Shown here one piece after another: positions 24,648 through 44,744 of a stretch of DNA of 64,000 bases. Source of the stretch: Nocardioides sp. HDW12B (lineage in GTDB: Bacteria; Actinomycetota; Actinomycetes; Propionibacteriales; Nocardioidaceae); assembly GCF_011299595.1 (NCBI RefSeq), contig NZ_CP049867.1:3720001-3784000 (forward strand), in the 5' to 3' direction. The number at the start of each line of letters is the position of its first letter. Within the stretch, counting starts at the first letter, position 1. The position numbers and the translations under genes are program-made. The notes below the pieces were generated by a model. It worked only from the letters and a program-made list of their open reading frames with translations. It was not told the DNA's origin and ran no database searches.

Positions 24648-25082
24648 GTGCCCAAGTCCCGTCCTTCCACCCTGGCCGCCGAGCCCCGCGGGTCCTCGAC
24701 CTCGGTGGTGCGGATGGCGCTCGTCGTGCTGCTCGTCGGCGTCGGCATCGCCTGGGTCACCTACTACCTGGCCTCTGCGCAAGACAGCGGCAAGCCGGCC
24801 TGGATGGCCGACCTGGGCGACTGGAACCTCGCCATCGGCTTCGGGGCGATCTTCCTGGGACTCGGGCTCTCCGCCCACCCGCGCTCACCCCTCGGTCGCG
24901 GCCGCGGGGTCGTCGTCGGGATGCTCGGCTGCTTCCTCATCGGGCTGGTGTGGATCGTCGTCTACTACGTCACCGGCCAGGACCTCGAGCTGCCCGTCAT
25001 CACCGACCTCGGCAACTACAACCTGCTGGTCGGAATCGGCTTCATGGCCACGGGGTTCGTGTTCGCCACCCGCTGGGAGTGA
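24648..25082 (+). CDS. crgA: Cell division protein CrgA, with two tandem CrgA units
   Basis: A 144-residue, four-helix membrane protein. CrgA is a small septal protein that recruits FtsZ-ring and peptidoglycan enzymes; the usual form is about 85-95 residues with two helices. Here the pattern 'helix, IxWVxYY, short extracytoplasmic loop, LGxWNLxIGFG helix' occurs twice: residues 21-80 ([12 protein letters not shown] ... [16 protein letters not shown]) and 88-144 ([12 protein letters not shown] ... [16 protein letters not shown]). The second half is closer to standard CrgA and ends in the normal TRW(E). GTG 24648 has a GAGGAGA site. It is divergent from DUF881, as in mycobacteria. Confidence 0.85.
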
Positions 25083-25098
25083 GCCCGGGTTCTCCCCA

Positions 25099-25168
25099 GC
25101 TGTGGACACACCTGGGGACAATGACACCGGTGTAGTTTCTCCACAGTAGTTATCCCCAGTGTGGATAA
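25099..25168. other. Cluster of DnaA-box-like sequences in the crgA-rhomboid gap
   Basis: The 261-bp gap between two convergent genes (25083-25343) holds a perfect DnaA box TGTGGATAA at 25160-25168, one-mismatch boxes TTATCCCCA (25150-25158) and TTCTCCACA (25137-25145), and weaker copies at 25101-25109 and 25113-25121. Because both flanking genes end here, the cluster is not a promoter region. A palindrome ACACCGGTGT lies at 25124-25133. The remaining bases up to 25310 show nothing I recognise. Confidence 0.6.
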
Positions 25169-25310
25169 CCTGCCGCTGCGCTCGGTGCGCGCAGCCAGGC
25201 CGCGCGCCGCTGCCTCGGGAGGGTCATTCCCCGGGTCCGGGCACGCCAAACCGGCGCGGGCAGCGGATGCTCGCGCCGGTCTGGACCGGTGGCGGTCGCC
25301 GGGCCGGGAC

Positions 25311-25347
25311 AGGTCGGGCGGGGTCAGGCGGGGTCAGGCGGGGTCAG
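25311..25347. repeat. Short tandem repeat, 10-bp unit
   Basis: Three to four copies of a GGGTCAGGCG unit (25321-25330, 25331-25340, partial 25341-25347, degenerate copy before) end in the last codons of the rhomboid gene on the other strand. Confidence 0.7.
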
Positions 25348-26234
25348 GTCAGGGTGAGGGTGCGCACCGCGATCGCCGCGAGCGTCAGCAGACCGACCAC
25401 GGTGAGCCCGGCGACCTGCCAGGCCGTCCGCCGTCGCCGCGGCGCGTAGACCAGCACGCCGCCGATCACGAGGCCCCCGACGAAGCCGCCCAGGTGACCC
25501 TGCCAGGAGATGAAGCTCGACCCGAGCACGGTGATGACCAGGTTGATCGCGACGAGCGTCAGCAGCGACTGCACGTCGCCCTTGACCTTGACCGCCACCA
25601 CGAGCAGCGCGCCCATCAGGCCGAAGATGGCGCCCGAGGCGCCGATGGTCAGCGAGTTCGGGGCCGAGAGCCAGTAGACCGCGGCCGACCCCACCAGCCC
25701 CGACATCAGGTAGAGCGCCAGGAACCGGGCCCGACCCAGCAGCAGCTCGAGCTGCGGCCCGAGGATGAACAGCGCGAGCATGTTGAAGCCGATGTGCCAG
25801 ATCTCGACGTGGGTGAACATCGAGGTCACCAGCTGCCAGACGGCACCGTCGGCCACGCCCTCGACCAGCGTGGGCCGGCCCTCGATGACGAGGCCGGTGC
25901 GCAGCGGCACCAGCGCCAGCTTCGACAGCAGCACGCTGCCGACCCCGCCGGCGGCCAGCACGAGCACGAAGATGCTCACGTTGGCCGCGATGAGCAGCTG
26001 GGTCACGGCCCCGGGTCGGGTCGGCCGCGTCCCGCCGTACGCCGTGCGCGCCTGGCGGGTGCTGCGGGCGCCCTCGGCGACGCAGTCGGGGCACTGGAAC
26101 CCGACTGCCGCCGACCGCATGCAGTCCGGGCAGATCGGGCGCTCGCACCGCTGGCACCGGATGTAGGTCTCCCGGTCGCTGTGGCGGTAGCAGGTCGGCG
26201 TCTGGGCGACCTGCCCCGGACCGGGTTGGTCCAC
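25344..26234 (-). CDS. Rhomboid family intramembrane serine protease with N-terminal zinc finger
   Basis: A 296-residue protein. Residues 13-55 form a B-box-like zinc-binding segment (CYRH, CQRCERPICPDCM, CPDC). Residues 85-290 are the rhomboid fold with about seven helices: the active-site Ser is in GASGAIFGLMGALL and the His in HLGGFVGGLVIG. Rhomboids cleave membrane proteins inside the bilayer. It starts 2 bp after the cyclophilin stop on the same strand, so the two are probably co-transcribed. Mycobacteria have a different gene (Rv0010c) here. Confidence 0.92.
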   Translation of the reverse strand: MDQPGPGQVAQTPTCYRHSDRETYIRCQRCERPICPDCMRSAAVGFQCPDCVAEGARSTRQARTAYGGTRPTRPGAVTQLLIAANVSIFVLVLAAGGVGSVLLSKLALVPLRTGLVIEGRPTLVEGVADGAVWQLVTSMFTHVEIWHIGFNMLALFILGPQLELLLGRARFLALYLMSGLVGSAAVYWLSAPNSLTIGASGAIFGLMGALLVVAVKVKGDVQSLLTLVAINLVITVLGSSFISWQGHLGGFVGGLVIGGVLVYAPRRRRTAWQVAGLTVVGLLTLAAIAVRTLTLT

Positions 26235-26236
26235 GC

Positions 26237-26758
26237 TCAGCGCTCCTCGACCTCCACCGACTCCACGACCACCGCGTCGACGGGACGGTCCATCGAGCCG
26301 GTCTCGGTCGTGGCGATCGCGTCGACGACGTCGCGGGAGGCCTGGTCGGCCACCTCGCCGAAGATCGTGTGCTTCATGTTCAGGTGGGGCGTGCGGCCGA
26401 CCGTGATGAAGAACTGCGAGCCGTTGGTGCCCGGGCCGGCGTTGGCCATGGCCAGCAGGTAGGGGCGGTCGAACTGCAGCTCGGGGTGGAACTCGTCCTT
26501 GAAGGTGTAGCCCGGACCGCCGCGACCGTCGCCGCGCGGGCAGCCGCCCTGGATCATGAAGCCGTCGATCACCCGGTGGAAGGTGAGGCCGTCGTAGAAG
26601 CGACCGGTCTTCTTCTCGCCCGAGGTGGCGTCGGTGAACTCCTTCTCACCGGTCGCGAGGCCCACGAAGTTGCCGACCGTGGTCGGGGCGTGGTCGGGGA
26701 AGAGCTTGAGGGTGATGTCGCCGCGGTTGGTCTTGAAGGTCGCGTAGGTGTCGGCCAC
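26237..26758 (-). CDS. ppiA: Cyclophilin-type peptidyl-prolyl cis-trans isomerase
   Basis: A 173-residue cytoplasmic cyclophilin that speeds proline isomerisation during folding. The active-site Arg is in FHRVIDGFMIQGG, and GTNGSQFFITV and HTIFGEV complete the family signature. GTG 26758 (MADTYATFKTNRG) is chosen because cyclophilins begin about here and an AAAGGCG site lies upstream; an in-frame ATG at 26818 would add 20 unrelated residues. It is first in a two-gene unit with the rhomboid gene, in the syntenic position of ppiA. Confidence 0.93.
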   Translation of the reverse strand: MADTYATFKTNRGDITLKLFPDHAPTTVGNFVGLATGEKEFTDATSGEKKTGRFYDGLTFHRVIDGFMIQGGCPRGDGRGGPGYTFKDEFHPELQFDRPYLLAMANAGPGTNGSQFFITVGRTPHLNMKHTIFGEVADQASRDVVDAIATTETGSMDRPVDAVVVESVEVEER

Positions 26759-26947
26759 GGGGGCACGCCTTTCGTGGAGCGGGGGGCAGGCTGCGCACGT
26801 CGTCCGGCGCTGCCGCACGGGGTCCCCCCGATCTTGTCACGTCCTCCCCAAAAGGGTTTCCTCGGTCGGTGCCTCGGGCAAGGATGGGACGGGTCCCGGC
26901 ATCGCGCCCGGACGCCCTCGGGCACCACACACTTAGGAGAGCCACTG

Positions 26948-33502: not shown

Positions 33503-36159
<2,657 letters not shown>

Positions 36160-42801: not shown

Positions 42802-43132
42802 GGCTGCTGCCTCCAAAGAGTTGAGTTGCCCGATCCTGCCACGGCGAGGTCGTTCATCCACAGGTCGGGCGCCCTGGAGGAATTCACCGAGGAGGAGGAC
42901 ATGGGAATTACAGGGTTAGTCGTAGCACCGGTGGAAACTGTGGAGAACCCATGTCGGTGCTGGTCAGCGGCCAGAAGTTGTTCGACGGGGCCTGTGGACG
43001 ACGCGCCGGGAACAGCGGCCCGGGTGGGGACGACGCCGCGGCCGTCCCCGGCGAACCACATGTTCTCCACAGGCTCTCCCGCGCTCGTCGACGGCCGCCC
43101 CCAGGTGGGTGCACATCTTCCACCGGTGTAGT
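42802..43132. other. Candidate chromosomal origin (oriC) between dnaN and dnaA
   Basis: A 331-bp non-coding gap, relatively AT-rich for this genome, with DnaA-box-like sequences at 42854-42862 (TCATCCACA), 42939-42947 (TGTGGAGAA), 42993-43001 (two mismatches) and 43063-43071 (TTCTCCACA). No perfect TTATCCACA is present. The position between dnaA and dnaN is where most actinobacterial origins lie. A CACCGGTGTAGTT sequence near the dnaA end (43122) is shared with the 25.1-kb cluster. Confidence 0.6.
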
Positions 43133-44620
43133 TCATCCCTGCTGGGCCTGCTGCTTGATGCGGTTGGTCAGCTCGGTGACGGTGTTGAACGTGCTGCGCC
43201 GCTCGGCGAGCTCGTCGCGGATCCGGTTGTTGGCGTACATCACCGTGGTGTGGTCGCGGCCGCCGAACTGCTGCCCGATCTTCGGCAGCGACAGGTCGGT
43301 GAGCTCGCGGCACAGGTACATCGCGATCTGGCGGCCGGTGACGAGGTTGCGCGAGCGGCTGGGCCCGCAGAGGTCGTCGATCGACAGCCCGAAGTACGAC
43401 GCGGTCTGGGCGATGATCAGCGGCGCGGTGATCTCGGGCTCGTTGCCGTGCGGGATCAGGTCCTTGAGCACGATCTCGGTGAGCGTGAGGTCGACCGGCT
43501 GCCCGTTGAGGCTCGCGAAGGCCGTGACCCGGATGAGGGCGCCCTCGAGCTCGCGGATGTTGGTCTGGATCTTGCTGGCGATGAACTCGAGCACGTCCGG
43601 CGGTGCGGTCAGCCGCTCGATGGCGGCCTTCTTGCGCAGGATCGCGATGCGCGTCTCCAGGTCCGGCGGCTGCACGTCGGTGATGAGGCCCCACTCGAAG
43701 CGGTTGCGCAGCCGGTCCTCGAGCGCCTCGAGGCGCTTGGGCGGACGGTCGGAGGTGATGACGATCTGCTTGTTCGCGTTGTGGAGGGTGTTGAACGTGT
43801 GGAAGAACTCCTCCTGCGTCTGGATCTTGCCCTCGAGGAACTGGATGTCGTCGATGAGCAGGACGTCGACGTCGCGGTAGCGTCGGTGGAACATCGAGGT
43901 CTTGTCGTCGCGGATCGCGTTGATGAACTCGTTGGTGAACTCCTCGCTGGACACGTAGCGCACCCGCGCGCCGGCGACGAGGCTGCGGACGTAGTGACCG
44001 ATCGCGTGGAGCAGGTGGGTCTTGCCCAGCCCCGAGCCGCCGTAGATCAGCAGCGGGTTGTAGGCGCGCCCGGGGGCCTCGGCCGCGGCGACCGCCGCGG
44101 CGTGGGCGAAGCGGTTGGACGAGCCGATGACGAAGGTCTCGAAGATGTACTTCGGGTTCAGCCGCGCCTCGACGATGCTGCCGGTCGGACGCCCCATGCC
44201 GTAGCCGTCGTCGACACCTCGATTTGTCGACTTGTCGGGAAAGGTATCCGTCGACATGGAGACCGGGACCGGGGCGGGCTCGAGCGTGGAGGCGGGCTCC
44301 GCGGGGACCGGGAGGTTGTCGTCGACCTCGACCTGGAGGCGGATCGAGCGGCCGAAGGCGTCGGCGAGCGCGTCCTCGAGCCAGGTGCGCAGGCGGCCCT
44401 CGAGCCGGGTGCGGGTGAACTCGTCCCCCACCGCGATCGTGGCGATGTTGTCGCGCAGGTGCCGCGGCTGGCTGGCGTTGAGCCACACGCGCTGGTTCGG
44501 CGGCAGGTTCTCCACCAGCTGGCGCCAGACCCGGAGCAGGTCGTCCGGTGGGGTGGGGGAGGCGCCGGTCGCCGTGGGGTTCTCGGGGGGAATGCCTGGG
44601 GGGTTGCCGCCGAACGTCAC
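43133..44620 (-). CDS. dnaA: Chromosomal replication initiator DnaA
   Basis: A 495-residue initiator. Domain I is about 25-100, a variable linker about 101-150, the AAA+ domain about 155-370 with Walker A GGSGLGKT (194-201) and Walker [11 protein letters not shown], and the C-terminal domain IV with the DNA-binding signature [14 protein letters not shown] 44620 (MTFGGNPPG) is chosen because the longer in-frame frame upstream crosses a perfect DnaA box at 44736-44744 and lacks a ribosome site. Expression is probably autoregulated by that box. Confidence 0.97.
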
Positions 44621-44735: not shown

Positions 44736-44744
44736 TTATCCACA
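44736..44744 (+). promoter_or_regulatory. Perfect DnaA box upstream of dnaA
   Basis: TTATCCACA, the consensus DnaA box, 116 bp before the dnaA start and downstream of the predicted promoter. A one-mismatch copy TTCTCCACA is at 44953-44961. Likely used for dnaA autorepression and/or as part of the origin. Confidence 0.8.

Follow-up and report, generated by a model that had tools for sequence, protein, structure and literature searches.

A palindrome-centred array of DnaA boxes near the replication origin of Nocardioides sp. HDW12B, probably ancient and conserved over much of Actinomycetota

In the present study, we analyzed a stretch of 64,000 nucleotides (hereafter the window) from the genome of Nocardioides sp. 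HDW12B (4.19 Mb in a single contig; NCBI RefSeq assembly GCF_011299595.1, contig NZ_CP049867.1, positions 3,720,001 to 3,784,000). The gap between crgA and a rhomboid protease gene, situated approximately 18 kb away from the replication origin, contains a compact element of six DnaA boxes, which are arranged with dyad symmetry and centred on an 18-bp palindrome. The element is probably ancient and conserved over much of the phylum Actinomycetota, and is very probably the homologue of the DnaA site between Rv0010c and Rv0011c of Mycobacterium tuberculosis. We put at roughly one in two the probability that it is an origin-proximal site of DnaA control, not a signal for its neighbour genes, and that it would act by a mechanism similar to that of the DnaA-reactivating sequences (DARS) of Escherichia coli with the participation of a protein on the palindrome; it would then probably represent an old switch by which the timing of chromosome replication is tuned.

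The crgA-rhomboid gap is 261 bp long. A relaxed scan for boxes (any base at position 3, A or C allowed at position 7, at most one mismatch) returned starts at 25090 (+), 25101 (-), 25113 (-), 25137 (+), 25150 (+) and 25160 (-), with all six boxes inside 25090-25168. From left to right, the array consists of box C' (TTCTCCCCA, 25090-25098, +), box B' (GTGTCCACA, 25101-25109, -), which is the weakest, box A' (TTGTCCCCA, 25113-25121, -), the core palindrome AATGACACCGGTGTAGTT (25120-25137), which is among the most conserved parts of the element, and boxes A (TTCTCCACA, 25137-25145, +), B (TTATCCCCA, 25150-25158, +) and C (TTATCCACA, 25160-25168, -). Box C is perfect, and boxes A and B each carry one mismatch. 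Each half forms a triad, in which one pair of neighbouring boxes is inverted and closely spaced and the other is in tandem. The starts are separated by 11 and 12 bp in the left triad and by 13 and 10 bp in the right triad, and both triads measure 23 bp from the first to the last start. An earlier reading of these letters without database searches (the sequence-only reading) had described a dense cluster here with one perfect and two one-mismatch boxes, all of which were recovered. The observation was correct and understated; six relaxed boxes start within 70 bp, the densest such group of the window (the next best has three), and the earlier limits were drawn too widely at 25083-25343 for an element that spans approximately 25090-25168.

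At no more than one mismatch, TTATNCACA is matched ten times in the window, whereas shuffled sequences lead to an expectation of 1.95, and box triads were found in the window only at this element. Genome-wide, perfect copies of TTATCCACA number five and copies with at most one mismatch 111, against one and 53, respectively, for a reversed-pattern control. Besides box C, one perfect copy lies where the longest dnaA frame has its 5' end (44736-44744), one approximately 160 bp ahead of the probable dnaB start (C1:3812806; DnaB by Pfam), and two at C1:853610 and C1:3134433. DnaA may be expected to bind the element in this organism.

Conservation of this intergenic region in relatives, which the sequence-only reading had named as a check, was found at the level of the family. 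Among 80 relatives of CrgA taken from named genomes, almost all Nocardioides or other Nocardioidaceae, a copy of TTATCCACA with at most one mismatch lies within 300 bp after crgA at 70 of the 79 loci with enough sequence, while the remaining 484,899 bp of those loci hold 18. When at least 10 of its 12 fixed positions are required, the palindrome is present after crgA in 77/80 sequences, the window included (L074 is too short for core scoring), and the best score in control windows from the same loci (n = 553) was 8/12.

Outside the family, up to 400 bp after crgA was read in 110 genomes of the class, representing 33 other families (the 30 with the best CrgA scores and 80 selected to cover families, without genomes of the own family and without surplus members of large ones; the stretches of L141, L168, L169 and L217 are short because contigs end there). 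A core (at least 9/12) with at least two boxes was present in 77 of these genomes from 27 families, against 1/980 windows of the Nocardioides genome and 0/161 neighbouring windows. Boxes alone, at least one exact and at least two in total, were present in 90/110, against 7/980 and 2/161. A sequence-only model, R1, built from 58 of 76 listed references that were chosen by hand and mostly carry both flanks, matched 229 of 296 class genomes (E <= 0.01). CrgA was located independently of this model in 175 of 177 genomes, and crgA adjoins all of the best 30 of the 229 matches, 18 of which are from the own family and 12 from others. Across the phylum, class members among them, matches at E <= 0.001 were obtained in 47 of 119 genomes. 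Of 17 non-class loci (L283 to L300, L289 excepted), frames were inspected in seven; a CrgA-like open reading frame adjoins the element in at least five of the 17, with one of these frames checked by Pfam and the others by eye or tblastn. Some copies lie in other classes. Locus L283 represents a different setting, and L287 and L295 carry dnaA. Eight genomes of genus g2 in family f1 (G026, G104, G115, G228, G246, G255, G271 and G279) have five to ten model matches each, both strands counted, which suggests that they hold extra copies of the element.

The geometry is conserved together with the sequence. Around the 81 class cores, when no triad was required, boxes with at most one mismatch piled up at set positions after the core end, on the plus strand at -2/-1 and 11/12 and on the minus strand at 9/10 and 21/22. 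Triads were scored at 73/81 class cores and 70/77 family cores. Seen from the palindrome, 106 of 171 triads are of the type ++-, with starts 13,10 (55) or 12,11 (51) bp apart, and 48 are of the type +--, with starts 11,12 (32) or 10,13 (16) bp apart; the remaining 17 belong to other types. Control sequence from 19 loci of this genome gave one triad in 760,000 strand-bases. A looser test on 20 loci found two, one upstream of dnaB and one at C1:3134421-3134455 (L083 9421-9455), a ++- triad (12,11) between other genes that lacks a core and includes a perfect box.

In the genomes of family f5, the palindrome follows crgA, which we take to be Rv0011c of M. tuberculosis. Of the 11 sampled, all six that belong to genus g9, which we infer to be Mycobacterium, have the palindrome end 66 bp before the start of an Rv0010c-like gene (L135, L136, L147, L151, L159 and L195; in L136 and L195 by residue count in a longer frame), and model R1 matches the g9 loci as well as the element of the window. 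Hicks et al. mapped DnaA by in vitro DNA affinity purification and sequencing (IDAP-seq) and electrophoretic mobility shift assays (EMSA) in M. tuberculosis, and by chromatin immunoprecipitation sequencing (ChIP-seq) in M. smegmatis, and reported five regions: oriC, Rv0010c-Rv0011c, upstream of dnaB, Rv3843c-RVnc0040, and rpmH-dnaA (PMC7738170). According to the portions of that report drawn on here, the recurrent changes of clinical strains in Rv0010c-Rv0011c fall, with one exception, in a palindrome located 65 bp ahead of Rv0010c, and three of the recurrent variants, when constructed in the laboratory, showed longer cells and effects on fitness under isoniazid, as dnaA variants did (PMC7738170). 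The same portions state no obvious counterpart in other bacterial species (PMC7738170). The likeness extends to the place, the DnaA-box-like sequences, and, in the g9 genomes, a palindrome equally far from the Rv0010c-like start; homology with the window element is very probable. Of the five mycobacterial regions, three apart from oriC (the crgA site, dnaB and rpmH-dnaA) hold a perfect box in the Nocardioides genome, whose two other perfect boxes (C1:853610 and C1:3134433) found no match. The region just upstream of dnaB (C1:3812740-3812830; L085 9740-9830) contains DnaA boxes and the loose triad, as reported for mycobacteria.

Considering the set geometry, the element probably has a DARS-like role, in which another protein would assist from the palindrome, itself a probable site for a dimeric protein. 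DnaA molecules would assemble on a triad in a fixed arrangement, and the close inverted pair would bring two of them face to face, as has been proposed for the DARS of E. coli. The protein on the palindrome, taking the part played by IHF and Fis at DARS2, would make this assembly dependent on the cell-cycle or growth state. The outcome would be a change in the nucleotide state or the availability of DnaA, by which initiation and its link to division may be adjusted.

Plain titration, in which boxes near oriC soak up DnaA, double early in the cycle and lower the free DnaA pool, is a serious alternative, albeit one we regard as unlikely. It has been proposed for datA, for the DnaA-box clusters of Bacillus subtilis and for those of Streptomyces, and it accounts for dense boxes close to oriC as well as for the families that keep boxes without the palindrome (8/8 genomes of the Streptomyces-like f20 and 9/12 of f18), where boxes are enough. 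However, titration needs number and affinity, not a set spacing, a strand order or a palindrome. A DARS-like role is favoured over titration because the geometry is constrained and because the mycobacterial phenotype was likened by the authors, in the portions used here, to that of dnaA alleles with reduced activity (PMC7738170).

A doubtful proposal, compatible with a DARS-like role, is that the palindrome is a site for WhiA, with WhiB2, through which a cell-division regulator would compete or cooperate with DnaA. In the sections of the Streptomyces venezuelae studies consulted, WhiA acts together with WhiB (PMC3781837, PMC4850268), and the WhiA motif, GACAC/GTGTC (PMC3781837), is present in part of the core half-sites. 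In other families, exact cores precede WhiB-family genes (two families; by Pfam in L245 and L269, by eye in L247, L249 and L251), DUF3263 genes (L243 and L253) and dnaA (L244). In the Nocardioides genome, a core-like palindrome lies upstream of nrdR (Pfam) at C1:1509795-1509875 (L081 9795-9875), with one close DnaA box and several further off but no triad; it is the second copy of the genome by model score, and nrdR is a footprinted WhiA target in S. venezuelae (PMC3781837, in part). On the other hand, the consensus of the family reads AATTACAC/AACTACAC around the core, not GACAC, WhiA was described in the part of its report used here as a monomer on an asymmetric site (PMC3781837), and crgA is unmentioned in the main text of the WhiA and WhiB papers (PMC3781837, PMC4850268). 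Because the family half-site is mostly TACAC, the case for WhiA is taken as a lead only.

The gene crgA, encoding a cell division protein (24648-25082, +; PF06781, E 2e-31), ends just before it, and the rhomboid-family gene (25344-26234, -; PF01694, E 1.3e-35) ends at 25344 from the opposite side, so that the two converge as the sequence-only reading had stated. Next to the latter is a cyclophilin-type peptidyl-prolyl isomerase gene (26237-26818, -; PF00160, E 6.5e-45), which is near the element in other genomes as well. A short tandem repeat of GGGGTCAGGC-like units, approximately three copies, was noted at 25310-25350, at the end of the rhomboid gene and outside the element. The transcriptional control of crgA, the rhomboid gene or an Rv0010c-like gene by DnaA is improbable: the neighbours converge here and no promoter-like site was seen at the element, and the expression of Rv0010c and Rv0011c is reported, in the portions of the paper used here, to be unchanged in dnaA mutants of M. 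tuberculosis (PMC7738170). The earlier statement that the cluster serves no promoter holds for this genome but not throughout, since a codirectional frame starts no more than approximately 70 bp after the palindrome in 11/11 f5 genomes, which speaks for neighbour control.

A role specific to crgA was rejected on positional grounds. The element lies 9.7-56.7 kb from dnaA in 28 of 30 genomes, and 127 and 131 kb from it in two f19 genomes, a nearness that speaks for the origin-proximal control reading; this sample of 30 was drawn from 32 by leaving out G018 (no core) and G213 (no crgA-placed element), and six of the positions are approximate, being taken from CrgA coordinates. In G044, G165 and G175, the CrgA match is on the other side of dnaA and the element is still at the end of the rhomboid gene, approximately 10 kb from dnaA (a similar case, G168, was dropped because both contigs end there). 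Because it stays in place in these three genomes, the element is tied to the origin region or the rhomboid gene, not to crgA, and this also argues against control of the neighbours.

The possibility of an auxiliary or alternative replication origin, which the sequence-only reading had placed beside a datA/DARS-like site, finds little support, and we consider it very unlikely; the datA/DARS-like half of that proposal is well supported by conservation, geometry and the published mycobacterial binding. In favour of an origin, the boxes are dense, and the element is less GC-rich (59%) than the dnaA-dnaN gap (66%), the conventional oriC candidate (42862-43132), which contains four relaxed boxes, none perfect and, as noted earlier, all non-consensus, without a triad. 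The minimum of the cumulative GC skew of the window is at 33,924, on a flat stretch at 24-36 kb, rather than at 43 kb; because it sits on this plateau, the skew gives no pointer to 43 kb and no decision between the sites. Against an origin, oriC and the crgA site form separate DnaA peaks in mycobacteria in the portions of the report used here (PMC7738170), and no unwinding region was recognised in the array, which is compact (79 bp). The motif CACCGGTGTAGTT, which had been noted as shared with the end of the dnaN-dnaA gap, lies inside the central palindrome and does recur there; it was rejected as a link to oriC, since the copy at the dnaA end (43116-43133) is degenerate, with three mismatches from the palindrome pattern. 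Least credible of all is a bidirectional terminator with the palindrome as an RNA hairpin: although a palindrome between convergent genes would suit it, no terminator-like site (hairpin plus T run) and no Rfam match were found at the element, pairing between variable positions of the core does not exceed that of shuffled ones (31 vs 34, 49 vs 47 and 39 vs 37 of 77), a codirectional frame follows in f5, and the DnaA boxes would be left unexplained; terminator, RNA-element and promoter readings were accordingly rejected for lack of consensus sites, Rfam matches and pairing covariation.

Several results weigh against, or limit, the reading as a conserved DARS-like control site. In the family, the core is absent from three of 80 sequences (L016, L035 and L059) and nine of 79 loci have no box with at most one mismatch within 300 bp. 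In the class, 67/296 genomes have no match to model R1 at E <= 0.01, some of the 229 matches may be to oriC or other places, and a core alone (at least 9/12) occurs in 18/980 and 5/161 control windows. The full element is lacking in six of the 33 families, three of which retain boxes but no core, and 33 of the 110 genomes failed the core-plus-boxes test (12/12 of f18, 8/8 of f20, 2/2 of f38 and 1/1 each of f4, f9 and f33, the remaining eight being from f15, f19, f26, f27 and f37). The triad scan restricted the positions allowed for the first and last box, and triads were scored on both sides of only 27/77 family cores, on one side of 43/77 and on neither side of 7/77; because of this, the conserved unit is the palindrome plus one triad, and the full mirror form is one common form, not the rule. 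Conserved gene order near oriC may explain the constant nearness to dnaA. The agreement with E. coli in box orientation would arise by chance approximately one time in four, because three boxes give only four orientation classes, and other box combinations may also be drawn at DARS2 at up to two mismatches. Deletion of a DnaA-box cluster in Streptomyces reportedly raised initiation, which favours titration there. The initiation rate of the mycobacterial mutants was also unchanged, according to the authors' discussion in the portions used here (PMC7738170).

Further copies of the core were noted in the Nocardioides genome. Two cores whose starts are 33 bp apart (C1:802524 and C1:802557; L082 10024-10074) precede a gene for an amidase/FG-GAP protein without DnaA boxes, and the direct repeat that follows the cores at C1:802524-802574 resembles MtrA sites. 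Another core without a triad, at C1:174999 (L272 5000-5017), is followed after approximately 110 bp by a frame that encodes an NlpC/P60 protein.

The tuning of DnaA in Actinomycetota is poorly known, and a compact, conserved element with a set geometry offers a concrete target in laboratory species and makes the "cryptic" DnaA site of M. tuberculosis one of a widespread class. It predicts a protein partner at its palindrome, and its two triads and the palindrome are separable for testing. A wider proposal, which we put forward tentatively, is that it represents a phylum-wide reactivation element of the DARS type far outside the proteobacteria, in which a triad is coupled to a dedicated palindrome that is read by an actinobacterial division or growth regulator, with WhiA/WhiB2 as the leading candidate. 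If so, one site of 50-100 bp would join replication initiation to cell division, and the pressure of selection on the palindrome in clinical tuberculosis strains would be explained.

Regarding known systems, scans of the DARS1 and DARS2 regions of E. coli returned a +-- triad with starts 14 and 12 bp apart, which presumably corresponds to the published DARS cores. The three-box core is shared in order and strands, in both halves of the element and at 73/81 class cores, and the likeness includes the 12-bp spacing of the tandem pair and a non-coding location outside oriC. The E. coli spacing of 14,12 was not found in the element (11,12 and 13,10), in which the starts of the inverted pair are 10-11 bp apart, 3-4 bp closer than in E. 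coli, a difference that adds to the points against a DARS-like role. DARS2 carries IHF and Fis sites (PMC8682772), whereas the element has an 18-bp palindrome in the adjoining place. datA is likewise an intergenic DnaA-box cluster outside oriC, but it works with IHF, on which its hydrolysis of DnaA-ATP depends, and a triad plus palindrome is not described for it in the parts of the literature searched. The Streptomyces clusters H69, H24 and D78 and the oriC-proximal clusters of B. subtilis are DnaA-box clusters near oriC; H69, a cosmid name, may be the crgA site itself, and the Streptomyces-like f20 copies have boxes after crgA and lack the core. The f5 genomes mostly have one scored triad before a codirectional frame, whereas the window has two mirrored triads between convergent genes and no Rv0010c-like gene after the element. 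Among the publications searched, no account of the crgA site was found beyond mycobacteria. Taken together, sites of this kind are already known as datA, DARS and DnaA-box clusters, and within the literature searched the architecture of the element and its spread appear to be new.
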